From the NCBI RefSeq assembly GCF_019801465.1, contig NZ_JAHVJA010000002.1, positions 372,001-436,000 on the forward strand: DNA of 64,000 nucleotides, given 5' to 3'. Positions 34,156 through 52,905 of this stretch are shown here, piece by piece. Position 1 is the first letter of the stretch. Each line of letters starts with the position of its first letter. This DNA comes from Leisingera daeponensis. GTDB taxonomy: Bacteria; Pseudomonadota; Alphaproteobacteria; Rhodobacterales; Rhodobacteraceae. Made by a program: the position numbers and the translations under genes. The notes below the pieces were generated by a model. The model had not been told where the DNA came from. It ran no database searches and worked only from the letters and a program-made list of their open reading frames with translations.

Positions 34156-35217
34156 TCAGGCTGCTTCATGCCCCAGAATCGCGGCTTCCGATGCGCTCAG
34201 ATTGCGGCGGGCATAGGCGCCGTATGACAGCGGGTTGCGCTCCAGCTGCGGCTGCAGGCGGAACAGGCGCGCCCGGTCTGAATCACTGAGCGCGGTGAGC
34301 GACGCATTGGACGGGTGGAAGCTCTCGGTCTCCACCCCGTTGGCCCAGAGCACCTGGTGATCGGCCAGCATGAGGTGAATATAGGTGACCTCACGCACCG
34401 AGGCGTCCGGCTGGATGGTGCCGCCATTGACCAGATCGCTTGCTGCCACCAGCACTTCAGGCGTGTTGAACAGCGCCCGCACCCGGTCGCCGCGCAACAG
34501 CATACGATGATCCGGCGAGACCAGAAGCTCCTGTTCCGGCCGGTCTATGCCCAGCGCGCCGGCGTGAATGCGGATCGGCCGAAGCCGCGGCATGACAAAG
34601 AGCCGCGCGCCGCTGATCCGGCGGGAGCCGATCCAGAGGATCTCCTGGGCGCCGTTGTCACGGGTCTGGACCTTTTCGCCTTCGCGCAGCTGCTCGACCC
34701 GTTTCGGGCCGCTTGGCGTCGCGATGACCGTGCCAGGCGTGAAGCAGATCACCCCGCTTTCTCCCTGAGGCCGTTCGGCGCAAATGGTGCCCAGAGAATG
34801 ATGCACAACCCACAGGTCGGTGCCGCGCGGCGGCAATTCGTCCACGAACATCAGCAGCGGACGCTGGTCCGGGCCGACCTCGATCAGGGTGACGGTGTAG
34901 CTTTGCACGCCGTTGGTCACGACAAAGCTGCTGTCCATCAGCGGCTCATCGACTTCCACCGCGTCCACGTCGGTGCGGTTCTGCACCGCAGCCCCCACCA
35001 GCCTGCGCACCGACCGCGCAGCCCGGCGCCGCAACTCTGCCTCGCCGTTTGCCATATCCAGCCGCAAAAGCCCCGCCGGCCCGTCCACCCGCACAGCATC
35101 GCCATGCCAGGACCAAGCCGCCCCCACATCCAGAGCGTCCACCGGTGCGGCCGGGAGGCCGTCAATCTCGGTTTGCGACCAGGAAACAACAAACGTGCCA
35201 CGAAAGCCCGTTTTCAT
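34156..35217 (-). CDS. Hint (Hedgehog/intein) domain protein
   Basis: This is 353 residues. Residues about 155-310 form a Hint module: the nucleophile Cys158 in VICFTPGTVIATPSG, the block VEQLREGEKVQTRDNG, and VSPDHRMLL. Many roseobacters encode such single-Hint proteins of unknown role. The 150-residue N-terminus is a beta-rich domain (GTFVVSWSQTEIDGL). I see no C-terminal Asn-Cys/Ser splice junction, so only autocleavage, or no cleavage, is likely. The ATG at 35217 is preferred to a TTG at 35238. An exact CtrA-type box lies 32 bp upstream. Confidence 0.82.
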   Translation of the reverse strand: MKTGFRGTFVVSWSQTEIDGLPAAPVDALDVGAAWSWHGDAVRVDGPAGLLRLDMANGEAELRRRAARSVRRLVGAAVQNRTDVDAVEVDEPLMDSSFVVTNGVQSYTVTLIEVGPDQRPLLMFVDELPPRGTDLWVVHHSLGTICAERPQGESGVICFTPGTVIATPSGPKRVEQLREGEKVQTRDNGAQEILWIGSRRISGARLFVMPRLRPIRIHAGALGIDRPEQELLVSPDHRMLLRGDRVRALFNTPEVLVAASDLVNGGTIQPDASVREVTYIHLMLADHQVLWANGVETESFHPSNASLTALSDSDRARLFRLQPQLERNPLSYGAYARRNLSASEAAILGHEAA

Positions 35218-35248
35218 CTGCCTGTATGCCTGCTTCAATTTATAATTA

Positions 35249-36338: not shown

Positions 36339-38762
<2,424 letters not shown>

Positions 38763-38846: not shown

Positions 38847-41312
38847 TCACTCCGGCAGGTATTTCTCAGACCAGCGCTCCCCGGCTGCGCCACTGGCGAT
38901 CATCGCTTCCGTTTCGCCGGCAGAGTAGCCAAGCCGTGCCAGGATCGCCCGGGTATGGGCACCGTATTTGGGCGCGGACCCGGGGATGGTGATCCGCCCG
39001 GCCTGCGGGCGCACCGCGTTGGGCGCCACCAGATCGCACCATCGCCCCATCGGGTGCCGGTCGTGGCGGATCACCCGGAAGGTTGCCTGCGTCAGATCGA
39101 TATTGCCGGCGGTTTCCAGCTGCAGCGCCGCGTCGCGGGTGTCATGCAGCGAGGACAGCGGCACTGCCGTTGCCGAGGTACCGGCAAAGGCCGCGCGCCA
39201 ATGCGGCAGCGGCTGCGACCTGAAGCGTTCAGACAGCGCCGCGTGCAGCTGGTCCTCCGGCAGCTCTGCCAGATCCGCCAGTTCCGGGACCCGCGCCAGG
39301 GTGGCAGTCCGTTCGGTGGGGGCGGCGAAGAAGAACCAGCAGTCCGCCGCCTGATAGCAGTGGTAGAACGCCCCCCAACCCAGCGCCGCGCGGCCCGAGG
39401 GCTCGTCAAAGGGCGCCCTGCCCTCATGGTCATACATGAACTGCGCCTGGATCAGGTTGCCGGCCGCCGCCAGCGAGGCACGCGCCACCCCGCCCTTGCC
39501 GGTTTCGTTCAGCCGCAGCAGGGCACCGCCCAGGGCCACGCAGGCGCAGAAGCCGGTCAGCACGTCGATGGTGCCGAAATGGGCGTGTTCTTCGGGCGTT
39601 TCCATGCCGCCGCCAAAGCGCAGCATCACCCCGGTTGCGGCCTGCGCCAGATCGTCATAGCCGAGATGGTCGGACTTCGGCCCGCGCATCGGGCCGCCGA
39701 AGGCATCGAGCTGCACCAGGATCAGACGCGGATTGATCTGTTCCAGCCGTTCCGGCGACAGTCCCAGATGATCCCGCTGCTGGTCGGTGCCGTTCATGGT
39801 GATGACATCGGCTTCGGCGATCAGCCGGGTCAGCGCCTCCTGCCCTTGTTCACTGCGCAGGTTCAGCAGGATGCTCTCCTTGCCGCGCTGCGCGTGGATC
39901 CCAAAGACGACGGTGTTCCAGGGGTCGACCGACGGGTCCACCGGCTGCACCAGCGTCACCTCGGCGCCGTAGCGTGCCAGGGTCGAGCCGATGGTCGGCC
40001 CGGCGATCACATTGGTGAGGTCCAGCACTTTCAGCCCGTCGAGCCAGCCCTTGCCCGCCTGCCCGCCGGCCCCGCCGCGCTCCGGCTCCGCCAGCAGCGC
40101 CGCCAGGTCTGCCTCCGCCGCACTGGATTTCCGTGCCGCGCCCTCGTCGCCGGACAGCCAGGCCACATTGCCCATCTGCTGCATCAGCCCGTGCCTGGCG
40201 TCCTCCACTTGCAGGATCAGCCCCGACGCCAAGGCGTGCGGGTCGTGCAGCCATTCGCTGGTGAAGCGCTGCGCGGTGGCGGGTGCCTTGGCGGCGCCGA
40301 ACAGCTCCTCCCACTCGTGGGAAGGTTTGGTCAGGAAAGCCGCCTTCATCGCCGAGGACACCCGTTCCCGGTCGGACGCCCCCACCGGGTAATTTCGCAT
40401 CGACCATTCGGCGGGCCAGTCCCTGGTATCAAGGTAGGCGGAGAAATCCGGCAGTTCGTCCGCCAGATCCTTAAGCCCCAGGGTCTCCAGAACCCGGCGC
40501 GGATGGGTGGCGACCGAGCCGCTCACCACATAGAAGCCGCGCCCGTCAGCGCAGGTATAGGTGCGGTAGAACGGGTCGAGGAATTCCGACAGCTCCTCGA
40601 ACTTCAGGTTCATCGGCAAGCCTTCGGCTTCGCGGCGGTCCAGCTCTACCTCGCGCGGGGATTTGTAGCGCGCGGGGTAGTCTTCGATCTGTTCGCAGTT
40701 ATAGACCAGCCCCTCCAGCAGCGCGGCGGCCAGCGGCACCTCGATATGGTCGCCGCCGTTCTGCTCGCGGGCGTTCAGGGCAAACAGCACCGACATGGCG
40801 CCGAAACTGGCACCATAGGCCGAAGCCAGGGTCAGCGGCGAGAAGGACGGGTTGATGCCCATCAGGCGGCGGTTCAGGCCCATGTCTGTGAACTGGCCGG
40901 TGTAGGCGGCGATCACCGCCTCCCAGGCAGGCAGGTCCGACAGTTCCGGATCGGTGGAAGCAAAGCCCGGCATCGACAGATAGACCAGCCGGCTGTTGGC
41001 GGCCCGCAGTGCCTCCGGCCCCAGGCCGAGGCGCTGCATCACACCGGGGCGGAAGTTCTCGATCACCACATCTGCGCGCTTGGCCAGCTCAATGGCAGCG
41101 GCGCGGCCTTCGTCCGACTTCAGGTCCAGCTCCAGCGCCTGCTTGCCCCGCGACAGCATGTCGAAGGCCGGGCCGTCAAACCCGGTGCCGCCCGGTGGGG
41201 TGATGCGGATCACCTCGGCGCCCATGTCGGCCAGCATCATGCCGGTCAGCGGGCCGGCCAGGTAATGGCCGAAGTCGAGAACGCGGATATGGGAAAGGGG
41301 GCGCTGCGGCAT
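38847..41312 (-). CDS. Tandem-fused CaiB/BaiF-type CoA-transferase
   Basis: This is 821 residues made of two class III CoA-transferase halves. The first is about 1-400 (IRVLDFGHYLAGPLTGMMLADMGAEVIRI, ENFRPGVMQRLGLG, ASAYGASFGAMSVLFAL). The second is about 430-821 (LKVLDLTNVIAGPTIGSTLARYGAEVTLVQ, GTIDVLTGFCACVALGGAL). Single-domain family members are about 400 residues and act as interlinked homodimers; the fusion supplies both chains. They move CoA between carboxylic acids. The catalytic Asp is not obvious in either half. It is divergent from a LysR gene that probably regulates it. The substrate is unknown. Confidence 0.88.
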   Translation of the reverse strand: MPQRPLSHIRVLDFGHYLAGPLTGMMLADMGAEVIRITPPGGTGFDGPAFDMLSRGKQALELDLKSDEGRAAAIELAKRADVVIENFRPGVMQRLGLGPEALRAANSRLVYLSMPGFASTDPELSDLPAWEAVIAAYTGQFTDMGLNRRLMGINPSFSPLTLASAYGASFGAMSVLFALNAREQNGGDHIEVPLAAALLEGLVYNCEQIEDYPARYKSPREVELDRREAEGLPMNLKFEELSEFLDPFYRTYTCADGRGFYVVSGSVATHPRRVLETLGLKDLADELPDFSAYLDTRDWPAEWSMRNYPVGASDRERVSSAMKAAFLTKPSHEWEELFGAAKAPATAQRFTSEWLHDPHALASGLILQVEDARHGLMQQMGNVAWLSGDEGAARKSSAAEADLAALLAEPERGGAGGQAGKGWLDGLKVLDLTNVIAGPTIGSTLARYGAEVTLVQPVDPSVDPWNTVVFGIHAQRGKESILLNLRSEQGQEALTRLIAEADVITMNGTDQQRDHLGLSPERLEQINPRLILVQLDAFGGPMRGPKSDHLGYDDLAQAATGVMLRFGGGMETPEEHAHFGTIDVLTGFCACVALGGALLRLNETGKGGVARASLAAAGNLIQAQFMYDHEGRAPFDEPSGRAALGWGAFYHCYQAADCWFFFAAPTERTATLARVPELADLAELPEDQLHAALSERFRSQPLPHWRAAFAGTSATAVPLSSLHDTRDAALQLETAGNIDLTQATFRVIRHDRHPMGRWCDLVAPNAVRPQAGRITIPGSAPKYGAHTRAILARLGYSAGETEAMIASGAAGERWSEKYLPE

Positions 41313-41406: not shown

Positions 41407-41423
41407 CATAACAATTTATTATG
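41407..41423. promoter_or_regulatory. LysR-type inverted repeat over the regulator start codon
   Basis: CATAA-N7-TTATG is a perfect inverted repeat containing a T-N11-A core. Its right arm covers the ATG of the LysR gene at 41421. Its position in the divergent gap suits autorepression and control of the CoA-transferase. Confidence 0.4.
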
Positions 41424-42347
41424 CAACGCTCGATACGCCCTACCTCCGGATCGCTGAACTCCCTCCTGGTTCTGGAGGTCGCCGTGCGGCATGCCAGCTT
41501 GTCCCGCGCCGCCGCTGAGCTGGGGATGAGCCAGCCCGCCGTGTCGCGCCACATCTCCACCTTGGAGGGGCGGTTGCGCCAGCCGCTGTTCGAGCGCAAC
41601 AACAACCGGATCGCGCCCACGGCCAATGCAACCCGGCTGGCAGACGCGGTGGCGCTGGGGCTGGGCCATGTGGATCAAGCCTGGAGCGAAGTGCTGGCGG
41701 CGCCGGAGACGGACGAGGTCACACTGGCCTGCACCTTCGGGTTTGCCGATCAATGGCTGATGCCGCGCTACTCGGATCTGCGCGCCAGCCTGGGCGGCAC
41801 GAGAGTCAGGGTGGTGACGACGGATCAGCTCGGCGATATCGATCTCAGCCGTCTGGATGCGGCGGTGGTGTGGGACCCGGCGCGGATGCCGGAGCGGCCG
41901 TATTTTCCGTTGGTACCGGCGGAAACTTTTCCGATCTGCAGCCCCGGCTTTCTGGAGGCATATCCGGAGGCGGCTGAGAACCTGTCCGCGCTGCCGCCGA
42001 ACCTGTTCCTGCATTTCGACACCGGCACTTCGGGGTTCCTGACCTGGCGGGGCTGGTTTGAGCAGGCAGGGCTACCACAACCGCGCTTTGGCAAAGCACC
42101 TGAATTCGACGCCTATCCGTTCCTGCTGCAATCGGTGCGGCGCGGCGAAGGAATCGGGCTGGGCTGGACCGGGATCGCCGACAATGCCCTGGCCTGCGGC
42201 GAGGTGCTGAGGCTGGGGCCTGCGGTTTCGGACAGGCCGTACAGCTATTTCGTGCAGCATCGCGCGCCAGCCGCCAGCAGCAGCGCGCTGGAGCAACTGC
42301 TGGACTGGTTCAGGTGTCAGTCGCCGCTGCTGCAAAGCCAGCCATAA
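41421..42347 (+). CDS. LysR-family regulator (GcvA-like)
   Basis: This is 308 residues. The N-terminal helix-turn-helix is LNSLLVLEVAVRHASLSRAAAELGMSQPAVSRHISTLE, followed by a periplasmic-binding-like effector domain with FADQWLMPRYSDL and AYPFLLQSVRRGEGIGLGW, typical of the GcvA/AmpR subgroup. It is divergent from the CoA-transferase, 108 bp away, which is its likely target. The ligand is unknown. Confidence 0.88.
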   Translation: MQRSIRPTSGSLNSLLVLEVAVRHASLSRAAAELGMSQPAVSRHISTLEGRLRQPLFERNNNRIAPTANATRLADAVALGLGHVDQAWSEVLAAPETDEVTLACTFGFADQWLMPRYSDLRASLGGTRVRVVTTDQLGDIDLSRLDAAVVWDPARMPERPYFPLVPAETFPICSPGFLEAYPEAAENLSALPPNLFLHFDTGTSGFLTWRGWFEQAGLPQPRFGKAPEFDAYPFLLQSVRRGEGIGLGWTGIADNALACGEVLRLGPAVSDRPYSYFVQHRAPAASSSALEQLLDWFRCQSPLLQSQP

Positions 42348-42359
42348 CAGAGCAGAAAA

Positions 42360-42385
42360 AAGCCGGAGGATGGCTCCTCCGGCTT
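42360..42385 (-). terminator. Intrinsic terminator ending the BCCT operon
   Basis: Perfect 11-bp arms AAGCCGGAGGA/TCCTCCGGCTT with loop TGGC are followed on the minus strand by a T-run. It terminates the minus-strand operon and also lies just past the LysR stop codon on the plus strand. Confidence 0.85.
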
Positions 42386-42417
42386 CCCCGCCCCCCCGGA
42401 GGGAGGCTGTTTTTTTA

Positions 42418-42455: not shown

Positions 42456-44279
42456 TTATTCGGCCGGAGCCGCGGCCTTCTCGCGCTGGCCGTCGCGGAA
42501 CAGCGCCTTGGCCAGCGAAATGCACATCAGTCCCATGACCATGGTGAACGGCAGAGCACCGATTATCATCGCGCTCTTCAGCGCTTCCATCGGGTCTGCT
42601 GCGCCATTGGTCTTGCCTGCGAACAGCAGGGTGCCGATGACGGCGGTCAGAATCAGGCCCCAGACGATCTTGTGCTTGTTGCCGATGTTCTGGTCGCCGC
42701 CGGACATGATGGTGTTCATCACCAGGATGCCGGAGTCCGCCGAAGTGACCAGGAAGGTCATGATCAGAACCACGCACATGATGGTGATGCCGGACAGCAG
42801 GCCGCCGTCGATCATGCTCTGCAGGGTCACGAACAGCTTGGCGGTGTTGGAAGCGCCGATGATGGCGCCTTCTGCCGCGCCGGACACTTCCAGGTCGATG
42901 GCGGTGCCGCCGAGGATGGCCATCCAGGCAAAGCAGACCATCGCCGGCGCGATCACGCAGCCGAGGATGAACTCGCGCACCGAGCGGCCGCGCGAGATGC
43001 GTGCCAGGAACAGGCCGACGAAGGGCGAGAACGCGATCCACCAGGCCCAGTAGAAGGTGGTCCAGCCGGCCTGCCAGCCGAACTGGCGCTGCGGCTCGCC
43101 CGCTGCATAGGCTGCTGCCAGAACCTCGTCGGACAAGGTAGCGGCTTCGCCTTCCAGGCCGGATTTGAAGCCGTCGAAAGAGCCCCAGGCATTGGTCGCG
43201 CCACCGCGCAGAGCATCTGCGTAGGGGGCTGCGTCAGCGGGAAGCGCTGCGGCGAACTCAGCCGGCGATTGCGGTCCGTAGGCACCGAAGCTCAGCGAGG
43301 TGAAGTGCAGGATGTAGTCCACGAAAGCCGACGCATAGGTGGTCATTGCGAACATGAAGGAGCCAAAGACCACGAAGGTCAGCAGCAGGATAATCGACAG
43401 AACCAGGTTCAGGTTCGACAGATACTTCACGCCGCGGCCGACGCCGGAAACTGCCGAAACGACCGACAGGCCCATGATCGCGAACAGGCCGGCCAGCAGG
43501 CCAACGGTGCCAGGCGCAGGCACTTCGCCGCTCATATCCATCATCCATTCCATGCCGGTGATGGCATAAACGCCGTCCACGAACTGCGACACGCCGAAAC
43601 CGATGGTCACGGAGACGCCCAGGATGGTGGCGACAACCCCCAGCACGTCAACGACGTGGCCCAGGAAGCCGTTCATCAGCTTGCCGAACAGCGGCGTCAG
43701 CGCGGTACGGATGGTCAGCGGCATGTCGCGGGTATAGGCGTAGTAGGCCAGCGACAGGCCGGTCACAACGTAGATCGCCCAGGCGTGGAAGCCATAGTGC
43801 AGGAACGTGTAGCGGAAGCCCGACTGGATGGCTTCTTCGGTGTTCGGTGTCACTTCCTGCGCAAGCACCACCGGGTTAGAGCCCCAGAGGCCCAGAGGTT
43901 CCGCGGTGGCGAAAACCATCAGGCCGACGCCCAGGCCGGCGCCGAACATCATCGAGAACCAGGAGAAATCGGAGAACTCCTTGCCCTGGCCCGGCCCCCC
44001 CATAATCCGCTTACCGGTTTGCGGCAAGGCGGCGACCACAAACAGGAAAAAGGCGAAGAAACCGACGATGATGATGTAGAAGGCGTTGAAATCCTCAAGG
44101 ATCCGCCAGTTGAGGCTGCCCAGCACGCCAGTGGCGTTTGCCGGCCAGACCAGGGCCCAGAGAACCAGGGCGACCATGATCCCCTTGCTGAGCAAGGCGA
44201 TCTCGACGCTGTGCCCCTTATAGAAGCCATCGTCGGAGGTCTTGATCTCCAGATCCGTAAAAGGTTGCTTTATTGACAT
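42456..44279 (-). CDS. BCCT-family transporter B (betaine/carnitine/choline type)
   Basis: This is 607 residues with 12 membrane helices. It has the canonical BCCT blocks: FSMMFGAGLGVGLMVFATAEP (Gly-rich helix) and FYWAWWIAFSPFVGLFLARISRGRS, whose Trp residues build the aromatic box for quaternary ammonium or sulfonium substrates. A loop insertion near 330-390 makes it longer than BetP-type cores. The start is ATG 44279 after GAGGAAA. It is the last gene of the seven-gene unit, after the Ldh-type oxidoreductase. Substrates of the family include glycine betaine, carnitine, choline and DMSP; which one applies here is unknown. Confidence 0.9.
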   Translation of the reverse strand: MSIKQPFTDLEIKTSDDGFYKGHSVEIALLSKGIMVALVLWALVWPANATGVLGSLNWRILEDFNAFYIIIVGFFAFFLFVVAALPQTGKRIMGGPGQGKEFSDFSWFSMMFGAGLGVGLMVFATAEPLGLWGSNPVVLAQEVTPNTEEAIQSGFRYTFLHYGFHAWAIYVVTGLSLAYYAYTRDMPLTIRTALTPLFGKLMNGFLGHVVDVLGVVATILGVSVTIGFGVSQFVDGVYAITGMEWMMDMSGEVPAPGTVGLLAGLFAIMGLSVVSAVSGVGRGVKYLSNLNLVLSIILLLTFVVFGSFMFAMTTYASAFVDYILHFTSLSFGAYGPQSPAEFAAALPADAAPYADALRGGATNAWGSFDGFKSGLEGEAATLSDEVLAAAYAAGEPQRQFGWQAGWTTFYWAWWIAFSPFVGLFLARISRGRSVREFILGCVIAPAMVCFAWMAILGGTAIDLEVSGAAEGAIIGASNTAKLFVTLQSMIDGGLLSGITIMCVVLIMTFLVTSADSGILVMNTIMSGGDQNIGNKHKIVWGLILTAVIGTLLFAGKTNGAADPMEALKSAMIIGALPFTMVMGLMCISLAKALFRDGQREKAAAPAE

Positions 44280-44356
44280 GCGTTTCCTCCCGTTTCGCAC
44301 GTGCCGCACCTGGGTGCGGATGGTCCGGCGGTTCGCGCGACCGCCGGTATCTGGCG

Positions 44357-45367
44357 TCAGCCCAGCAGGGCTTCGATCCTGGCCAGTGTTGCTGCACTGA
44401 CCGCGACGCCGTCCTTGCGGGCCTGCAAGCGCTTTGCCCGCCGCCCGTCTCCGGGCAGGTGTGCGCCCTCTTGCCCGCGCACCGCTTCCACGATTCCGGC
44501 CATTCCAGTGCGAAAGCCGTCATTTGATGTCGCTGCCGGGTCGATTGCGATGAACATCTGGCCGGTTTTCGGCGGGCCGCCCGCGGTGCCGGAGAACGGC
44601 GAGGCATTGATGCCGAGGGTGGCGCCGGTCAGCGCGGCGGCCATGATTTCGGTCAGCAGCGCCACGCCGACGCCCTTGTAGCCGCCCGAGGGCGCCATCG
44701 AGCCCTTGAGGCCGGCGTCCGGATCGGTGGTCGGATTGCCATCGGCATCCAGCGCCCAGCCCAGCGGGATCTCCTTGCCTTCGCGGGCGTGTTTCATCAC
44801 TTCGCTTTTGGCGATGGTGCTTGCGCTCTGGTCGATCAGCATCTCCGGTTCGCCGCCTTCGCCCGGCACCGCAACCGAGAACGGGTTGGTGCCGACCACC
44901 GGCTTCTTGCCGCCTGACGGCGCAATCGACGCCGGCGCATTGGTAAAGCCCAGGCCGACCAGCCCGGCGCGGGCCAGGCGGGCGGTGTGATAGCCCAGCA
45001 CCCCGCAGTTATAGCTGTTGCGGATCGCAAGCACCGCAATGCCCTGCTCCCTGGCGGCCGGGATCAGCTCCTGAAACCCCATGTCGATGGCGGAATGGGC
45101 AAAGCCGGTGGCTGCGTCGACTGCCACGACGCCGGGACGCGGGCGGCTCAGCACCGGTGCCGCCTGCCCGTCCACCTTGCCGCATTGCACGTGCTCGGCG
45201 TAGATCGGGATATAGGCAAGGCCGTGGCTGGCCACGCCGTCCGCTTCGGTTGCCGCGGTCGCGACGGCCAGCGGCCGGGCATTGGCCTCGGACGTGCCTG
45301 CTGCCACCAGGGCGCGGAAGGACAGGTCCTCGATTTCAGCAAGGGTCATGGTTCTGGTTTCGGTCAT
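44357..45367 (-). CDS. Ldh-family (type 2 malate/lactate dehydrogenase-like) oxidoreductase
   Basis: This is 336 residues of the NAD(P)-dependent Ldh_2 family, with ATEADGVASHGL (catalytic His48), NSYNCGVLGYHTARLA and PVVGTNPFSVAVPG. Members include malate, sulfolactate and ureidoglycolate dehydrogenases and the reductase of cyclic imines (pyrroline-2-carboxylate / piperideine-2-carboxylate). The start lies 12 bp after the DUF3726 gene. Together with the aldehyde dehydrogenase of this unit, an imino- or keto-acid step in catabolism of an imported compound is plausible but not shown. Confidence 0.85.
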   Translation of the reverse strand: MTETRTMTLAEIEDLSFRALVAAGTSEANARPLAVATAATEADGVASHGLAYIPIYAEHVQCGKVDGQAAPVLSRPRPGVVAVDAATGFAHSAIDMGFQELIPAAREQGIAVLAIRNSYNCGVLGYHTARLARAGLVGLGFTNAPASIAPSGGKKPVVGTNPFSVAVPGEGGEPEMLIDQSASTIAKSEVMKHAREGKEIPLGWALDADGNPTTDPDAGLKGSMAPSGGYKGVGVALLTEIMAAALTGATLGINASPFSGTAGGPPKTGQMFIAIDPAATSNDGFRTGMAGIVEAVRGQEGAHLPGDGRRAKRLQARKDGVAVSAATLARIEALLG

Positions 45368-45379
45368 GTCGATGCCTCT

Positions 45380-46009
45380 TCAGTCGTTGTCCGACAACCC
45401 GGCGCCGGCGCCGAGACGGCGCGACTCCTCGGTGGCCGGAGCGTAGGTTTTATGGGCGAAACGGTTGAGAACGGCCCAGGCCGCCTCCTCCGGTTCCGCG
45501 CGGGTGCAGTTGGGGTTTGCGCTTGCGAGGCTTCCCGCAGCGCGGATGGTCAGCTGTGCCGCCGTATCCGGCAGTGCGCCTTCGCACCGCAAGCCGATGC
45601 CATCGGTGACAGCCTGGAAGCCCTCCCCCTCGACGGTGACGCAGACGCCTATCTGGCGTGCGGCCATCGCAGCAAACGGAAGGATCATTGCAGGCCGGAA
45701 CACCGGTCCGGCTTTCAGCGGCGCCTGCAGCAGCCGCGCCGCACAGTCGGACAGGGCCGCACCGGACGCCAGCGGGCACAGCGGCGCTTGCGCAAGCCAG
45801 TCCCCTTGCAAGTCTTGCGGCACATGGGCGGGCAGACCGGCGGCAAAGCCTGCGTCCAGCACCCCCGCCAGCACTGCGGCCCCGTCCAGCCCCTGCGCGC
45901 AGAGCCAGCGGGCGGCTTTCGCGGCTTCCTCGGCCAGGCCCCAGTCATAGCCTGCGCCGCGGGCGGCGCGTTTGGCGGTGGCTTCCACTTCGTTCAGCGC
46001 ATAGCTCAT
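45380..46009 (-). CDS. DUF3726-type protein
   Basis: This is 209 residues resembling DUF3726 proteins: SYALNEVEATAKRAARGAGYDWGLAEEAAKAARWL at the N-terminus and FAHKTYAPATEESRRLGAGAG at the C-terminus. No catalytic motif is evident, though Cys and Asn residues cluster in the last third. The ATG overlaps the stop of the preceding 557-residue gene (ATGA), so the two products are probably made together and may interact. The function is unknown. Confidence 0.65.
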   Translation of the reverse strand: MSYALNEVEATAKRAARGAGYDWGLAEEAAKAARWLCAQGLDGAAVLAGVLDAGFAAGLPAHVPQDLQGDWLAQAPLCPLASGAALSDCAARLLQAPLKAGPVFRPAMILPFAAMAARQIGVCVTVEGEGFQAVTDGIGLRCEGALPDTAAQLTIRAAGSLASANPNCTRAEPEEAAWAVLNRFAHKTYAPATEESRRLGAGAGLSDND

Positions 46010-47679
46010 TGGTCGGCCTCCGGATAGACCCACAGGTCGGCGTTGGCGGTGGTCAGGTCTTCGGGATACGGCGCGCCCGCATACATGCAGATCCGCACCC
46101 AGCGGTCGGAGCGCGGGTCGAAATGCGTCGCCCCGAAGAACGACAGCTTGGCCCGCAGCATGTCGATCGGCAGCACCCTGTCGCTGATGGTGTTGCTGCG
46201 GATCTCGCCATAAGGCGCGGCCTGGCTCATCTGCGCCCGGCGCACGGTGTGGCGGTGTTCCGGGTGGTGCAGCAGAAAGGCCGCAACCGGCGCGTCCGCG
46301 TCCCAGCCCGCCAGCGCCGCATGGGCGGCCGCTGCGTCCCGGGCCGGGGCCAAGGGCTGCTCGTAGTCGGCAATCGGCTCTTCAAAGCGCTCGCCCATGC
46401 GCGGCTCGAGCTTCTCTTCCGAGACATACCAGGCCCGGGCGCAGTTTTCCCGGGCGCTCCAATCCAGCTCCAGCGCCCAGCCGAAACTGTTCATGATCAG
46501 CTCCCGCACACGTGCAACCGGCATTGCGCCGTCGATGATGAACGCGTCCTTGTTGGTATCCGCCATGCAGTCGGACAGGCCGTCCACCAGCTCGGCATAG
46601 GGCTCCAGGATCAGCGAGGCCGCCAGTTCCTGTCCTTCCAGACCCAGCGCGTCCTCGCTCCAGCGGATCAGGCGGTCCCAGGGGCGGTTGCCGAGCAGAT
46701 CATCCGCGGCCACCCAGGCGGCAAGCGCCTCAAGATCCTTGGCCAGGCCTGCCAGCTTCTCGAGCTGCACCGGGTGTTCCGAGTGCCACCGGGCTGCCGA
46801 CAGTTCGCTCCGCCGCAGCATCCGGCGGAAAAAATCCGCTGCCTCCGGTGTGGCGGTTTCGACCGAGCGCACCCGGGCAATCGCCTCCTCCCGCGCCATG
46901 ATCCAGTTGTTGAACAGCACCGGGTGGTTGACGATGTAGGGCGCCATGCCGAGGCCGGTGGAATTGCCGATGCCCAGCCGCCGCGCAGTTCCGGGCGCCA
47001 GCGGCACCGCCTGATCGCCGCCCTTGGCACGGGCCATGTGCTCGACCAGATCACGCACAAAGACCCGCGTCAGATAGACCGACAGCATCTCGGCCTGGAA
47101 CGGGGTGCTGAGTTCGGGGCGGTCGGCAATCGCCTCCCGGTCGGCAGCACCCAGCTTGCCGGAGCCGTAGACGGCGGTGGTCCGCATCAGATAACCGACA
47201 GCCTCCACCTGGGCCGGGTCCGGCTGGCGGCCCTGGGACAGCGCGTCGACGAAATGCGCCCACAGGCGCACGGAGCGGTTTGCCCGGGACACCGACAGCG
47301 ACTTCTCGTCGACCCGTCCGGCTTCCTGGTACGGCACATTCTTTGCGAGCCGCGCGATGTCCGCATCCGTTGGCACCCCGTCGAACAGGGTAAAGGTCGC
47401 ATCCCAGGCAGTGGCGATCACCCGGTCCGAGCGCATTTCCGGCGGCAGGTCGTGGGCAAAGGCGATCAGCGAATAGGTGCGCGCGGGGCCGGTGGCGGTA
47501 TAGACCGCCACGCCCACACCCTTGGCGTCGATATCGAACTTGGGCCGCGCAAAACTCCAGTTCTCGCGGGCCATCCGGCGGGTCAGCACCCGCATGAAGG
47601 ACAGCCGGGACTGGTGCAAGGATCCAAGCCGCGCAAGGCGCATAACCCGGTCCGGATCGCGGCGCGCAATATCGCTCAT
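46006..47679 (-). CDS. Unrecognised 557-residue protein of the BCCT operon
   Basis: I do not recognise this family. The protein is soluble-looking, without a signal peptide or membrane helix. It is rich in conserved-looking Arg/Trp/Asp (FMRVLTRRMARENWSFARPKFDIDAKGVGVAVY, RVIATAWDATFTLFDG). The middle has LGIGNSTGLGMAPYIVNHPVLFNNWI. The C-terminus has HFDPRSDRWVRICMYAGAPYPEDL. Its size and the buried polar motifs suggest an enzyme. It is coupled to the DUF3726 gene by an ATGA overlap and follows BCCT-A after 67 bp. It is a prime candidate for the novel step of this pathway. Confidence 0.7.
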   Translation of the reverse strand: MSDIARRDPDRVMRLARLGSLHQSRLSFMRVLTRRMARENWSFARPKFDIDAKGVGVAVYTATGPARTYSLIAFAHDLPPEMRSDRVIATAWDATFTLFDGVPTDADIARLAKNVPYQEAGRVDEKSLSVSRANRSVRLWAHFVDALSQGRQPDPAQVEAVGYLMRTTAVYGSGKLGAADREAIADRPELSTPFQAEMLSVYLTRVFVRDLVEHMARAKGGDQAVPLAPGTARRLGIGNSTGLGMAPYIVNHPVLFNNWIMAREEAIARVRSVETATPEAADFFRRMLRRSELSAARWHSEHPVQLEKLAGLAKDLEALAAWVAADDLLGNRPWDRLIRWSEDALGLEGQELAASLILEPYAELVDGLSDCMADTNKDAFIIDGAMPVARVRELIMNSFGWALELDWSARENCARAWYVSEEKLEPRMGERFEEPIADYEQPLAPARDAAAAHAALAGWDADAPVAAFLLHHPEHRHTVRRAQMSQAAPYGEIRSNTISDRVLPIDMLRAKLSFFGATHFDPRSDRWVRICMYAGAPYPEDLTTANADLWVYPEADQ

Positions 47680-47746
47680 AGAAGTGGCCCCCAGTTGGAG
47701 TTACGATGATGTGCGGCCGGGCTCCCGCAGGCGCCCGGCCCTGTGT

Positions 47747-49294
47747 TCAGCCGGTCTTGCCCTTGGCCAGGGTGATGCGCAGCGCATCCCACAGCGAGGG
47801 CAGCAGCAGCAGCGACACCGGAACGGCGGTCACCACGATGAAGCTTTGCAGCTTGGACACCCCGCCGGCGCCCACCGAGATCAGGATCACGGCCATCAGG
47901 CCCATCGCGGCGCCCCAGAAGATCCGCACCGGCATCGACGGGTGGCCGTCGCGGCTCATGGTGACAGAGATAACATAAGTCATCGAGTCGCCGGTGGTGG
48001 CCACGAAGATGGTGGTCAGGACCAGGAACAGCACCGAGACCAGGAACCCCATCGGCAGCTGCTGGGTGATCGCCAGCAGTGCGGCCGGCAGGTTGAAGCC
48101 CTCAAACGCCGCCGCCACGGTGCCGGGGTTCTCCAGCTCAAAGGCGATGCCGGAGCCGCCGACGATGGTGAACCAGAAATTGGTGACGATGGGGGCGATG
48201 ACCGACAGCATGATGATAATCGAGCGGATCGAGCGGCCGCGCGACACCCGCGCGATGAACATTGCCATCAGCGGCCCGTAGCCCATGAACCAGCCCCAAA
48301 AGAACACGGTCCACCAGCCCAGCCAGCCCGGCGCGCCGAACAGGCCCGCATCGCCGCGGTAGAGCGCCATGCCGAAGAAGCTGCCCAGATACTCGCCGAA
48401 GCCCGAGAAGAAAGTGGAGAAGATGAATCCGGTCGGCCCCGCCACCAGCATGAACAGCAGCAGACCGGTGGCCAGCACGACGTTGATCCGGCTCAGCAGC
48501 TGGATGCCCTTGGACAGGCCGGTCATTGCCGAAACGGTATAGAGCAGTACCAGCGCGGCGATCACTACGGCCTGGGTGGCGAAGCTGTTGGCGACGCCGA
48601 ACAGGTCGCTCAGCCCGTAGCCGACCTGCAGGCCCAGGAAGCCGATCGGGCCGACGGTGCCCGCCACCACAGCGATGATCGAAGAGGCATCGGCAATCAG
48701 GCCGATCGGGCCGTTGATCGCCTTGTCGCCGAACACCGGATACAGCAGCGTCCGCGGCGCCAGCGGCAGGCCTTTCTCATAGTGGTAGTGCATCAGCATC
48801 ACGGTGCTGAGAGAGCCGAGGATCGCCCAGGCCAGGAACCCCCAGTGCATGAAGCTTTGCGCCATCGCCGGGTTCACCGCGGCCGCGGTGCCGGCTTCGG
48901 CGCCGAACAGCGGCGGCGGCGACAGGAAATGCGCCATCGGCTCGCCTGCGGCCCAGAACACGCCGCCGCCGGCCAGCAGCGTGCACATGATCATCGAGCC
49001 CCACTGGAACACGGTGAACTCGGGCCGGGCCAGACCGCCCAGGACGGCCTTGCCGCCGGGCAGCACGCACAGCAGCAGGCCGATCAGGAATGTCGCCAGC
49101 AGCAGGAGCTGCCAGTAGAAGCCGAAATAGGTGGCGGCGATGTTGAATCCCCAGTCGACGGCGCCGGAGAGCGCGTCGAGGTTGAACAGCGCCAGCAGGC
49201 AGAAGCCTGCGATGAAGCCGCCGGAGATCAGGAACAGCGGCAGGTTGACCCTGCCGCCGTCCTTCGCCCCGATTTCAAGTGATGTGTCCGTCAT
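47747..49294 (-). CDS. BCCT-family transporter A (divergent)
   Basis: This is 515 residues with 12 membrane helices and BCCT landmarks: FQWGSMIMCTLLAGGGVFWAAGEPMAHF and FMGYGPLMAMFIARVSRGRSIRSI. In place of the usual WxPFVG segment it reads YGPLMA, and the Gly-rich helix reads LAGGGVFWAAGEP. The substrate pocket therefore differs from BCCT-B of the same operon. ATG 49294 was chosen over an upstream in-frame start with an Arg-rich, non-membrane extension. Confidence 0.88.
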   Translation of the reverse strand: MTDTSLEIGAKDGGRVNLPLFLISGGFIAGFCLLALFNLDALSGAVDWGFNIAATYFGFYWQLLLLATFLIGLLLCVLPGGKAVLGGLARPEFTVFQWGSMIMCTLLAGGGVFWAAGEPMAHFLSPPPLFGAEAGTAAAVNPAMAQSFMHWGFLAWAILGSLSTVMLMHYHYEKGLPLAPRTLLYPVFGDKAINGPIGLIADASSIIAVVAGTVGPIGFLGLQVGYGLSDLFGVANSFATQAVVIAALVLLYTVSAMTGLSKGIQLLSRINVVLATGLLLFMLVAGPTGFIFSTFFSGFGEYLGSFFGMALYRGDAGLFGAPGWLGWWTVFFWGWFMGYGPLMAMFIARVSRGRSIRSIIIMLSVIAPIVTNFWFTIVGGSGIAFELENPGTVAAAFEGFNLPAALLAITQQLPMGFLVSVLFLVLTTIFVATTGDSMTYVISVTMSRDGHPSMPVRIFWGAAMGLMAVILISVGAGGVSKLQSFIVVTAVPVSLLLLPSLWDALRITLAKGKTG

Positions 49295-49352
49295 AGCGTC
49301 CTCCCGTCGCGGCGCGGGACGGCGCCGCCGCATGGCCTTCAGCCTGATCCCC

Positions 49353-50333
49353 TCAGGCGGCAGTGAAATTGTCCTTGAAGAAGCGGTACCAGTTGCCGCC
49401 CATGATCCCTGCGACCTCTTCGGCATTCATGCCCGTGGCGCGCAGGCCCTCCTCGATGTTGCCGAAATCGCGGTTGTCCTTGAACCAGCCGGGCATTTCC
49501 GGGAAGCCCGGTGCGGCGGCTGATCCTTCGCCGTAGTCGATCTCCTTGGTCCAGCGGCCGACCCGCATCCACTCGACCACGCTGTCGGGCTGGTCTTGGC
49601 AGAGGTCGGTTCCGATGCCGAGGTGCTCAACCCCGTATTTCTCGGCGGTGCGGGCAATCATCTCGCAGAAGCTCTGCAGGGTGCAGGCAGACTTGTCCTT
49701 CAGGTGGTGCGGATAGACCGAGAAGCCCAGCATGCCGCCGTGGCCGGTGACAGCCCGCAGCACATCGTCCTTCTTGTTGCGCAGCGCCGGCGACCAATCA
49801 TGCGGATTGGCGTGGGTGATGGCGATGGGCCGGGTGGATATCTCCGCCGCCTCGATGGTGGAGCGGTCGGCGGAGTGGCTCATGTCCACGACCAGGCCGA
49901 CCCGGTTCATCTCCTTGATCACCTGCTTGCCCATGCGGGTCAGCCCCATGTCCTCGGCCTCGTAACACCCCGTGGCCAGCAGCGACTGGTTGTTGTAGGT
50001 GAGCTGCATGAAGCGAGCGCCGAGCGTGTGCAGGATCTCGACCAAGCCGATGTCGTCTTCCATCGGCGAGGGGTTCTGGAAGCCGAAGAACACCGCTGTG
50101 CGGCCGGTTTCGCGCGCCTTGTCGATGTCCGAGGCCCATTGCCCCTTCATGATCAGGTCCGGGTACTGCTCGAACCAGCGGTTCCACTTCTCGAAGTTCA
50201 GAACCGTTTCGCGGAAGTTCTCGTGATAGGCAATGGTGACATGGATCGCGTCCACGTTGCCCTCGCGCAGCTGGCGGAAGATCTTTTCCGACCAGTTGGC
50301 ATATTGCAGGCAGTCGATACGGTATCCGGTCAT
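49353..50333 (-). CDS. M19 (membrane/renal dipeptidase) homologue lacking key zinc ligands
   Basis: This is 326 residues with the M19 TIM-barrel layout: LGARFMQLTYNNQS, GLTRMGKQVIKEMNRVGLVVDMSHS, AITHANPH and LGIGTDLCQD. In human renal dipeptidase the zinc ligands are His20, Asp22, Glu125, His198 and His219. Here the first motif reads IDCLQYANW (no HxD) and the Glu125 region reads FFGFQNPSP (Gln86). The His152 equivalent is Tyr113. His153, His174 and Asp243 remain. Classical dinuclear dipeptidase chemistry is therefore unlikely. A dipeptidase-annotated gene is, as I recall, also linked to dimethylglycine catabolism in Pseudomonas, which would suit a betaine pathway. It lies between the aldehyde dehydrogenase and BCCT-A. 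Confidence 0.82.
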   Translation of the reverse strand: MTGYRIDCLQYANWSEKIFRQLREGNVDAIHVTIAYHENFRETVLNFEKWNRWFEQYPDLIMKGQWASDIDKARETGRTAVFFGFQNPSPMEDDIGLVEILHTLGARFMQLTYNNQSLLATGCYEAEDMGLTRMGKQVIKEMNRVGLVVDMSHSADRSTIEAAEISTRPIAITHANPHDWSPALRNKKDDVLRAVTGHGGMLGFSVYPHHLKDKSACTLQSFCEMIARTAEKYGVEHLGIGTDLCQDQPDSVVEWMRVGRWTKEIDYGEGSAAAPGFPEMPGWFKDNRDFGNIEEGLRATGMNAEEVAGIMGGNWYRFFKDNFTAA

Positions 50334-50470
50334 TCAAGCACCTCGGTTTTCAAAGTCCAGCGCCCGGCCTTCTGGCAGCGGGCAGGAGGCGCCCGCCGCA
50401 GGGGAAACGAAGAGGGCGGGCGCTTCCGCAATCTGGCAAGCCGGTGTCCGGCACTGCCAGGGTTTCAGTC

Positions 50471-51916
50471 TCAGGCCGGTTTGCCGGCGCTGATGTAGGC
50501 GGTCTTGACGGTGGTGTAGAATTCCGCCGCTGCCTTGCCCTGCTCGCGCGGGCCATAGGAGCTGTCTCCGCGGCCGCCAAACGGCACGTGGTAGTCGGTG
50601 CCTGCGGTCGGCAGGTTGACGGTGACAACACCGGTGCGCGCGTTGCGACGGAAGTGGGTGGCGCGGGCCAGCGACTGGGTGACGATGCCCGAGGTCAGGC
50701 CGAAGTTGGTGTCGTTCACCACGCTCAGCGCCTCGTCATAGCTGCCGACCTTGATAACGGAGGTCAGCGGCGCGAACATTTCCTCGCGGTTGATGCGCAT
50801 GTCGTTGGTGGTGTTCAGGAACACGCCGGGCGACATGTAGAAGCCCTCGTGCGGCATCTCCAGGCGTTGGCCGCCGCAGGCCAGCTCGGCGCCTTCGGAT
50901 GTCCCCAGATCGACATAGGCCAGGTTCTCGTTCAGCTGCTGTTCGCTGACCACCGGCCCCATCTGCACGCCCGCTTCCAGCGCGTGGCCCACTTTCATTG
51001 CCTGCGCACCCGCCACCAGTTTTTCAACAAAGGCGTCATGCACGGCCGCGTGGACCACGAGCCGGGAGGAAGCAGTGCATTTCTGACCAGTGCCGCCAAA
51101 GGCGCCGCCCAGCGCCAGAGTGACGGCCAGATCCAGGTCGGCGTCGTCCATGACGGCCAGTGCGTTCTTGGAGCCCATCTCCATCTGCACCTTGGTCAGG
51201 TTCTGGATGGCGGCAGCGGCGATGCCCTTGCCCACCGGCACCGAGCCGGTGAAGGAGATCGCGTTCACCTTGGGGCTTTCGACCAACCGCTGGCCGATCG
51301 AGCGGCCCGAGCCCATAACCAGCGAGAACAGGCCCTTGGGGATATCCTGGCGCTCGATGATTTCGGTCAGGGCCACGGCAGAGGCCGGGGTGATGTTGGC
51401 GGGCTTCCAGACAACCGCGTTGCCGTAGCAGAGTGCCGGCGCAATTTTCCAGGACGCGGTTGCGGTCGGGAAGTTCCAGGGCGAGATGATGGCAACAACG
51501 CCCACCGCCTCGCGGCGCACGTCCACCTCGATGTCGGGGCGCACGGAGTCGGCGTTTTCACCGATCTGGCGCAGGCATTCGGCGGCGTAATAGGTAAAGA
51601 ACTGCCCGGCCCGGTAGACTTCGCCCTTGCCCTCGGCCAGCGGCTTGCCTTCTTCGCGCGACAGCAGCGTGCCCAGCTCTTCGGCGCGCGCCATCAGCTC
51701 ATTGCCGATGTTCATCAGAACCGCCTGCTTGCGCTCCAGGCCGTAAGCAGCCCACTCTCGCTGTGCAATCTGCGCCTGATCCAGCGTCGCCTCCAGCTGG
51801 TCGGTGCTGGCCTGGGCAAACATGCCGACCAGATCGCTCAGGTCCGAAGGGTTGCGGTTTTCGATTTCGCTTTCGCCCGCCAGCCATTCGCCGGCAATCA
51901 GGTTCAGTTTGGTCAC
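50471..51916 (-). CDS. NAD(P)-dependent aldehyde dehydrogenase
   Basis: This is 481 residues from the GTG at 51916, which gives the normal ALDH N-terminus (TKLNLIAGEWLAG); an in-frame TTG at 51988 is the alternative. It has the cofactor fold FTGSVPVGKGI, the general base Glu246 in QMEMGSKN and the catalytic Cys280 in GQKCTASS. Overall it resembles 2-oxoglutarate-semialdehyde and succinate-semialdehyde dehydrogenases. It is the first gene of the seven-gene operon, divergent from a LysR gene. Confidence 0.9.
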   Translation of the reverse strand: MTKLNLIAGEWLAGESEIENRNPSDLSDLVGMFAQASTDQLEATLDQAQIAQREWAAYGLERKQAVLMNIGNELMARAEELGTLLSREEGKPLAEGKGEVYRAGQFFTYYAAECLRQIGENADSVRPDIEVDVRREAVGVVAIISPWNFPTATASWKIAPALCYGNAVVWKPANITPASAVALTEIIERQDIPKGLFSLVMGSGRSIGQRLVESPKVNAISFTGSVPVGKGIAAAAIQNLTKVQMEMGSKNALAVMDDADLDLAVTLALGGAFGGTGQKCTASSRLVVHAAVHDAFVEKLVAGAQAMKVGHALEAGVQMGPVVSEQQLNENLAYVDLGTSEGAELACGGQRLEMPHEGFYMSPGVFLNTTNDMRINREEMFAPLTSVIKVGSYDEALSVVNDTNFGLTSGIVTQSLARATHFRRNARTGVVTVNLPTAGTDYHVPFGGRGDSSYGPREQGKAAAEFYTTVKTAYISAGKPA

Positions 51917-52002
51917 GGAGAAGCCCCAGATGCTGAATTTCAGGTCTGCAGCAGGATGGACTCCCCGGAGAGCATCAGTCAAACTCAATTAACTGAAAGC
52001 AA

Positions 52003-52019
52003 CTTCAGGAAAGTTGAAG
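52003..52019. promoter_or_regulatory. LysR-type site ahead of the BCCT-cluster regulator
   Basis: CTTCA-N7-TGAAG is a perfect inverted repeat with a T-N11-A core (TCAGGAAAGTTGA). It ends one base before the LysR start codon at 52021, in the 104-bp gap shared with the aldehyde dehydrogenase gene. Confidence 0.45.
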
Positions 52020-52020
52020 A

Positions 52021-52905
52021 ATGGCCCTGAAAATCGAAATGCTGCGCGCCTTTTGCACCGTAGCGCAGACTGGCAATCTGTCCGAGGCCGCGAACCGTTT
52101 GGGACGGACCCAATCGGCGGTGTCCATGACGCTGAAGCAGATGGAGGACCATCTTGGCAAGAGGCTGTTTGAAGGGGAGCGCAAGAACCAGTTATCGCCG
52201 CTGGGCGAGCAGGTTTTTGAGTTGGCGCAGAAGCAGGTGCGGCGCTTCGATCAAACCGTGCAAAGCATTGAACTGGCGGCAGAGGCCGCACATGGCCTGC
52301 TTCAGATCGTCTCGGTCCCATCCGTTGCCGCGCTGGTTTTTCCGCCAGTTCTGGAACACATGACGGCACGCCATCCCGGCCTCAAGGTGGAATTGCGCGA
52401 CACCGACACGCAGGAGGTTCTGGATGCGCTGGCAGAGGGCAAGGCTGATATCGGCATCGCCTCCGGCTATCATCCGCTGAACGGTGTCAGGGCAGTGCCG
52501 TTGTTCGCGGACCGTTTCGGGCTGGTCTGCGCGACGGACCACCCGCTGCACCGGCAGGAGACCGCGCCCACGATAGCCGATGTGATCAGCTCGTCATTTG
52601 TCCGCAATGCCCTGTGCGGCCTGATCCGCAACGAGCGCTTTGTCGAGGCGAGCAGCAATGCGGATGTGACAATCCACAACACGCATTCGCTGATCACAAT
52701 GGTCCGGACCGGCAAATGGGTCACGGTGCTGCCGCAGACCGTTGCCCGCTTCATGCCGGAAGCAACCGCCTTCCGGCCGATAGCCGACCTGCCCGATAAG
52801 CGGGAGGTCTACCTGTACCAGCGCGAACGCTCCCGCTTTGCGGCACTGGCCGAGGAGTGCTGCGCCTTCATTCAATCCTGCGACCTGTCCGGAGATCCCG
52901 GCTGA
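52021..52905 (+). CDS. LysR-family regulator of the BCCT cluster
   Basis: This is 294 residues. The N-terminal helix-turn-helix is LRAFCTVAQTGNLSEAANRLGRTQSAVSMTLKQMEDHLG, and the effector domain has ELRDTDTQEVLDALAEGKADIGIAS. It is divergent from the aldehyde dehydrogenase that heads the seven-gene operon, so it is the likely inducer-responsive regulator. Two adjacent Cys near the C-terminus (AEECCAF) are unusual but may not matter. Confidence 0.88.
   Translation: MALKIEMLRAFCTVAQTGNLSEAANRLGRTQSAVSMTLKQMEDHLGKRLFEGERKNQLSPLGEQVFELAQKQVRRFDQTVQSIELAAEAAHGLLQIVSVPSVAALVFPPVLEHMTARHPGLKVELRDTDTQEVLDALAEGKADIGIASGYHPLNGVRAVPLFADRFGLVCATDHPLHRQETAPTIADVISSSFVRNALCGLIRNERFVEASSNADVTIHNTHSLITMVRTGKWVTVLPQTVARFMPEATAFRPIADLPDKREVYLYQRERSRFAALAEECCAFIQSCDLSGDPG

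Follow-up and report, generated by a model that had tools for sequence, protein, structure and literature searches.

Which compound is broken down by a gene cluster that combines two BCCT carriers with several enzymes and a long protein of no recognised family? The question is raised by a stretch of 64,000 nucleotides of Leisingera daeponensis (assembly GCF_019801465.1, contig NZ_JAHVJA010000002.1, positions 372,001 to 436,000), here called the window, in which seven genes follow one another on the minus strand and face a divergent LysR gene. An earlier note on this DNA proposed that they form an undescribed catabolic pathway for an onium compound. We find that the cluster is a genuine, conserved onium catabolic operon. 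Its most likely substrate is homarine (N-methylpicolinate), which would be degraded to N-methylglutamate; we put the probability of this reading at roughly three in four. The pathway is then probably one already described: according to a citation in the available part of PMC13390433, a study of homarine catabolism appeared in 2026 (Nat Microbiol 11:1531).

A conserved operon with exchangeable carriers

In brief, the order on the minus strand is an aldehyde dehydrogenase (ALDH, 50471-51988), an M19 amidohydrolase-like protein of the 2i5g subfamily (49353-50333), the carrier BCCT-A (47747-49426), a protein of 557 residues here named U557 (46006-47679), its partner, a DUF3726 protein (45380-46033), a reductase of the Ldh_2 family (Ldh, 44357-45367) and the carrier BCCT-B (42456-44309), followed by a T-tailed hairpin. 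The LysR-type gene (52021-52905, plus strand) is divergent from the operon and encodes the probable pathway regulator. All of these genes are present as open frames, as the earlier note had them, and Pfam confirms Aldedh, Peptidase_M19, BCCT twice, DUF3726 (PF12525), Ldh_2 and the LysR domains HTH_1 and LysR_substrate. The spacing within the cluster ranges from an overlap up to 137 bp.

Conservation was read from loci that have a relative of U557. The named set consists of the best 80 loci among at least 588 matching stretches and leans to close relatives. Fifty-eight of these, with more than 6 kb on both sides of U557, were kept and 22 were set aside; neighbours were counted within 8 kb, at identity cut-offs of 50% for ALDH, 45% for the BCCT carriers, 40% for Ldh and 35% for LysR. 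DUF3726 and M19 each accompany U557 in all 58 loci, ALDH is found in 50, LysR in 49 and Ldh in 31. A lack of co-occurrence in other genomes had been set beforehand as one finding that would refute the proposal, and the neighbourhoods of these loci show that the genes do co-occur.

The carriers are less constant. Of the 58 loci, 16 have BCCT-B, 12 have BCCT-A and five have an OpuAC-type binding protein, whereas 25 have none of the three. Both BCCT genes together are found in none of the 58, so that the window, which has both, is unusual. BCCT-A always stands upstream of U557, and BCCT-B stands downstream of it in 15 of its 16 loci; in L110 BCCT-B occupies the gap between M19 and U557. Within the genus, 18 loci were read with wide flanks (two further genomes, read less widely, are not counted). 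In 17 of these M19 is followed directly by U557, with 37-39 bp between the matches and BCCT-A missing there, which rules out BCCT-A as a core gene. The arrangement of the proposed seven-gene unit is conserved, with BCCT-A as a variable passenger.

The two carriers belong to the BCCT family (469 and 495 bits against a PF02028 cut-off of 27 bits) and are only 28% identical to each other. In L082 and L088 a glycine betaine ATP-binding cassette (ABC) system of the OpuAC type lies inside the gene run, after Ldh. Beyond the 58-locus set, Aminobacter, Roseateles and Shinella have a glycine betaine ABC system after Ldh. In the gene runs of L170 and L171, from two small AT-rich genomes, such a system precedes ALDH; L079 and L090 have NMT1-type binding proteins instead. 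Because BCCT-A, BCCT-B and the ABC system, distinct carriers of one class, replace one another beside the same enzymes, the onium substrate class is well supported, and with it the view that the genes form a single conserved unit for the breakdown of an onium compound.

All seven genes stay below the NCBIfam cut-offs of choline, carnitine, glycine betaine and dimethylsulfoniopropionate (DMSP) proteins, in line with the earlier note, which could name no such route with this exact set. ALDH scores 386 bits with the betaine-aldehyde dehydrogenase model, where 668.6 are needed, and the carriers score 378 and 316 bits with the betaine BCCT model, where 650 are needed.

The nearest named U557 relative among the matches listed is from Leisingera sp. 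ANG1 (91% identity). With the window genome and distant paralogues counted, relatives (E<=0.001) are found in 27 of 61 near genomes, 181 of 395 genomes of the family and 53 of 385 genomes of the class. They are also present in 168 of 72,556 plasmid records, and a search of 50,697 phage records gave no match. Some of the class genomes with a relative are small (1.2-1.4 Mb) and rich in AT, with a G+C content of 28-36% over the stretches read, which is SAR11-like in size and composition. Two small AT-rich genomes have ALDH-M19-U557-DUF3726 and a divergent Ldh; LysR was not recognised there. In Phaeobacter inhibens DSM 17395 (L194) the cluster is located on plasmid pPGA1_262, next to a DMSP demethylation gene set; this plasmid has a second U557 place besides the one read.

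Homarine as the likely substrate

The best NCBIfam model for ALDH is that of alpha-ketoglutaric semialdehyde (KGSA) dehydrogenase, with 478 bits, under the cut-off of 770. The nearest solved chain to Ldh is DpkA (1wtj; 1.6e-55, 192 bits vs 5.3e-39, 138 bits for the next chain). DpkA reduces piperideine-2-carboxylate and forms N-methyl amino acids according to the available part of PMC6110843. We regard Ldh as a candidate DpkA-like imine reductase.

M19 reaches the family score, and its nearest solved chain is 2i5g (9.1e-54), an M19-like amidohydrolase. It has Gln86 at the position of a Glu, a metal ligand, in dipeptidase 3id7. His153 and His174 are retained, and the N-terminal HxD motif of the family is not seen in the sequence. 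The complete set of di-metal ligands is thus not present, in line with the altered metal site claimed in the earlier note. Since 2i5g carries the same Gln, a defect unique to this M19 is ruled out and the Gln is, to judge from the sequences, a trait of the subfamily. The source of 2i5g is presumably a Pseudomonas, with an association to glycine betaine genes; PA5396 was not mentioned in the literature searched.

The fit to homarine is close, because the cluster has five enzyme genes and a regulator, a DpkA-like Ldh, an ALDH closest to enzymes of five-carbon semialdehydes, and an amidohydrolase-like protein that could release the lost ring carbon. We infer the following substrate, reactions and order. 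A BCCT carrier would import the pyridinium betaine homarine. U557 and DUF3726, acting as one two-subunit enzyme, would start the attack on the ring and open it at C5-C6. ALDH would oxidise the resulting five-carbon semialdehyde, M19 would take ring carbon 6 off the nitrogen as formate, and the DpkA-like Ldh would form N-methylglutamate by reducing the C2=N-methyl imine that is left. The last enzyme, N-methylglutamate dehydrogenase (Mgd), has its genes at another place in the window genome and would yield glutamate and methylene-tetrahydrofolate. By textbook chemistry the carbon balance is C7 homarine to C6 N-methylglutamate plus C1. Ring opening is assigned to U557-DUF3726 by elimination and is the weakest step.

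The 2026 study reportedly describes an operon homABCDER of five structural genes and a regulator, with N-methylglutamate as product, in Rhodobacterales and SAR11. The window cluster resembles such an operon in its five enzyme genes and LysR, in its occurrence in Rhodobacterales and perhaps in a link to Mgd, seen as Mgd-type neighbours of its relatives; it would differ in two extra BCCT genes. Mgd takes part in homarine catabolism according to the 2026 report, as cited in the part of PMC13390433 available. Homarine together with the other cluster names was not found in the literature searched.

Operons annotated as heterotetrameric sarcosine oxidase are located near the cluster in six of the 80 named loci (L069, L082, L083, L088, L101 and L102), five of them within the 58; three of the six are cut by the end of the stretch. 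Among eight U557-centred plasmid regions opened, three have the operon (H7, H54, H57) and five do not (H6, H55, H59, H64, H88). It is also found near the cluster in P. inhibens M619. The adjoining operon of Ruegeria sp. TM1040 codes for the four-subunit enzyme and a helix-turn-helix regulator. In Roseateles XES5 the enzyme genes lie on the far side of LysR and of a gene for a GlxA-family regulator, and the carrier genes are followed by purU and folD; Shinella WSD5-1 has a similar layout, with purU.

A tree of the alpha-subunit was made with 17 rows, eight of them cluster-adjacent (Shinella, L101 and L102 were left out). Seven of the eight cluster-adjacent rows group with Mgd references defined by gene context, and a true sarcosine oxidase is ruled out for these seven. 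These neighbours point to N-methylglutamate as the product. The Roseateles subunit joins a Rhizobium enzyme (support 100/100, 72% identity) that is encoded beside glnT and glutamate-synthase-like genes, the gmaS-mgs set. Six roseobacter rows fall in a 10-row group (100/99) with the operon of Paracoccus yeei, which adjoins dimethylamine monooxygenase (dmm) genes; the nearest split to them has a support of 88/89. The gene order in R. pomeroyi is dmm-tmaR-mgd according to the available part of PMC13390433. An operon of Vibrio, near methionine synthase and DUF1852 genes, is placed apart from the Mgd groups. Two distinct Mgd lineages adjoin the same cluster, which suggests that the link between Mgd and the cluster may have been selected repeatedly.

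The Mgd homologue of the window genome that is closest to that of TM1040 (78% identity) is found on contig C10, away from the cluster. No match to gmaS, mgsA or mgsB (E<=1e-25, half of the query) was found in 136 loci, which suggests direct formation of N-methylglutamate. The cluster would thus share the Mgd step with the N-methylglutamate pathway (GmaS, Mgs, Mgd), and Mgd-type operons adjoin its relatives, but the genes for the first steps have no match nearby and N-methylglutamate would come from a ring compound, not from methylamine. In Ruegeria THAF33 (L217) genes for a Rieske oxygenase, a reductase and a BCCT carrier are close to an Mgd-like operon; together they may form another route for an N-methyl betaine.

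Several observations weigh against homarine. Ring opening might be expected to need an oxygenase, and none was recognised among the cluster genes. Ldh was not found in 27 and neither BCCT in 30 of the 58 loci, and the OpuAC-type protein lies outside the gene run in three of the five loci that have it (L071, L074 and L078; 28-34% identity). An Mgd-type operon is near the cluster in only six of the 80 named loci. The Mgd references in the tree are defined by gene context only, the alpha-subunit near L174 does not join the Mgd group and has a long branch, and the long-branch join of Vibrio with Leis_C1, a second Leisingera copy, may be false according to the tree tool. Data for R. pomeroyi conflict: in the available parts of the two sources, growth on homarine is poorer than on trigonelline (PMC8269262), whereas homarine is drawn down fast (PMC12817926). 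The module is also found among phosphonate-type genes (L046), among PALP, M24 and racemase genes (L042) and among luciferase-like monooxygenase genes (L084). Since these gene contexts are unlike, the substrate may vary, and related substrates at other loci are possible.

In L046 (5749-15770) U557-DUF3726-Ldh are found beside an aminotransferase V, a phosphodiesterase-family protein, perhaps a phosphonoacetate hydrolase, and an ALDH; a zinc alcohol dehydrogenase stands where M19 would be. In L084 (2896-10273, Marivita) a set of AA_synth, hydrolase, luciferase-like monooxygenase and ALDH genes runs into M19-U557-DUF3726. The AA_synth/monooxygenase set is separate in the window genome, on contig C11, near another sarcosine-oxidase-like operon. 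The luciferase-like monooxygenase was considered as the missing oxygenase of the operon and not adopted, as it forms a set of its own there.

Another N-methylated betaine, such as proline betaine or glutamate betaine, could be degraded via N-methylglutamate or another N-methyl amino acid, with ALDH acting on N-methylglutamate semialdehyde. Such a route should also have these carriers and Mgd neighbours, and glutamate-semialdehyde dehydrogenases are among the weaker NCBIfam matches of ALDH. However, the cluster has no Rieske demethylase, one Rieske query matched only two of 136 loci, and Ldh is closest to a reductase of a six-membered 2-carboxylated ring; we consider this alternative unlikely. 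It is very improbable that M19-U557-DUF3726 serves generally in repair or demodification and has been taken up by several pathways, with a substrate that depends on the locus. The pair is found without a recognised M19 in L054-L056, and in unlike contexts, but LysR and ALDH are present in 49 and 50, respectively, of the 58 closest well-flanked loci.

Trigonelline is likewise an N-methylpyridinium carboxylate, and its tgn pathway has an ALDH and an amide hydrolysis step. Degradation of trigonelline or another N-methylpyridinium with release of methylamine is the least probable of all, since, although in Marivita a luciferase-like monooxygenase and an ALDH stand ahead of M19-U557-DUF3726 in a single gene run, that monooxygenase set is separate in the window genome, gmaS, mgsA and mgsB are unmatched in the 136 loci, and Pfam finds no pair like TgnA/TgnB, which open the ring in the known route (PMC8269262, available part), in the window cluster.

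We keep homarine as the preferred substrate. Homarine is an abundant algal pyridine betaine. The part of PMC8269262 available gives it as up to 3% of particulate carbon in North Pacific surface waters, and a later author correction, also available in part, states that homarine had been overstated (PMC10134881). As a U557 relative, distant ones counted, is present in 181 of the 395 family genomes, the module may handle a sizeable carbon flux.

The U557-DUF3726 pair

With homarine as the probable substrate, interest now centres on the U557-DUF3726 pair, in which the central protein has no recognised family and its predicted structures have no fold match in the PDB. U557, which the earlier note could not recognise, matches no family of Pfam (E<=0.1) or NCBIfam (E<=0.01). 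The same holds for its relatives, as none of 47 family members has a Pfam match at E<=0.001 (best 0.0048). An AlphaFold model of U557 reached a predicted local distance difference test score (pLDDT) of 90.3 and a predicted template modelling score (pTM) of 0.92; an earlier model had a pLDDT of 80. With both models no PDB chain was found at E<=0.001, the best match of the better model being at 0.1 (TM 0.09), and a fold search against viral structures gave no match. Profile searches gave only weak matches, the best a V-ATPase subunit at 0.011 for U557 and one at 0.077 for DUF3726. DUF3726 was not found in the literature searched.

Of 128 loci read, 125 encode a DUF3726-type partner 3' of U557 and on its strand. 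The exceptions are L125, which is cut at that point, and L183 and L186, both less than 36% identical in U557, where none was seen; in L183 the far U557 relative lies inside an open frame of 868 residues. The two proteins are found together also in far relatives from Sinorhizobium and Variovorax, and the C-terminal SR..AG tail of DUF3726 is retained at 17-22% identity. In L054 (8426-10920), L055 and L056 a U557 relative (42-43%) is followed by a DUF3726-type partner, Pfam-confirmed in L054, and no M19, ALDH or Ldh was recognised nearby; we regard these as putative paralogous pairs.

The two genes also appear to have been replaced jointly. In five of the 18 same-genus loci the identity is 68-69% for U557 and 43-45% for DUF3726, while ALDH, M19 and BCCT-B are at 93-98%. 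Ldh is at 92-94% in four of these five and at 75% in L041. In two of these four, L044 and L050, which were compared base by base, the similar blocks end within approximately 80 bp of the M19-U557 and DUF3726-Ldh joints. The simplest reading is that U557-DUF3726 were apparently exchanged as a block in these five genomes, as would be expected of two subunits that have to match; an uneven pace of change is less likely. In L041 (7179-8493) part of a second Ldh gene, closer to that of the window (85%), lies behind the complete one, which looks like a scar of block replacement.

We propose U557 as the putative catalytic subunit. Tentatively, and at somewhat less than even odds, we speculate that U557-DUF3726 is a two-subunit enzyme of a new fold that opens the N-methylpyridinium ring although no flavin, haem or iron-sulfur site can be recognised in it, and that the paralogous pairs (approximately 29-43% in U557) in other operons carry out related reactions in soil and marine bacteria. 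Naming the reaction of U557 would make many catabolic loci readable.

Operon boundaries and neighbouring genes

Re-examination of the start sites indicated that three proteins are probably somewhat shorter than their open frames. ALDH likely starts at GTG 51916 (481 residues), BCCT-A at 49333 or 49294 and BCCT-B at ATG 44279. DUF3726 likely starts at 46009, which leaves a 4-bp overlap with U557.

The T-tailed hairpin past BCCT-B, with which the earlier note ended the cluster, is present at 42355-42386 on the minus strand. The 109-nt stretch that holds it and two more hairpins folds at -66.1 kcal/mol, against a mean of -44.7 for shuffled sequences (z -5.4). A simple consensus scan did not have this hairpin among its seven sites, a number no higher than expected by chance (7.9).

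Next to the operon end, 38847-41312 encodes a double CaiB/CoA-transferase III protein that adjoins a LysR gene (41421-42347); it is located beside BCCT-B in some members of the genus only. Two open frames of 548 and 493 residues (28742-30388 and 36402-37883) have no Pfam family at E<=1e-5. The window also encodes a Hint_2-domain protein (34156-35238) and a GDSL-lipase protein with RTX calcium-binding repeats (60915-62486).

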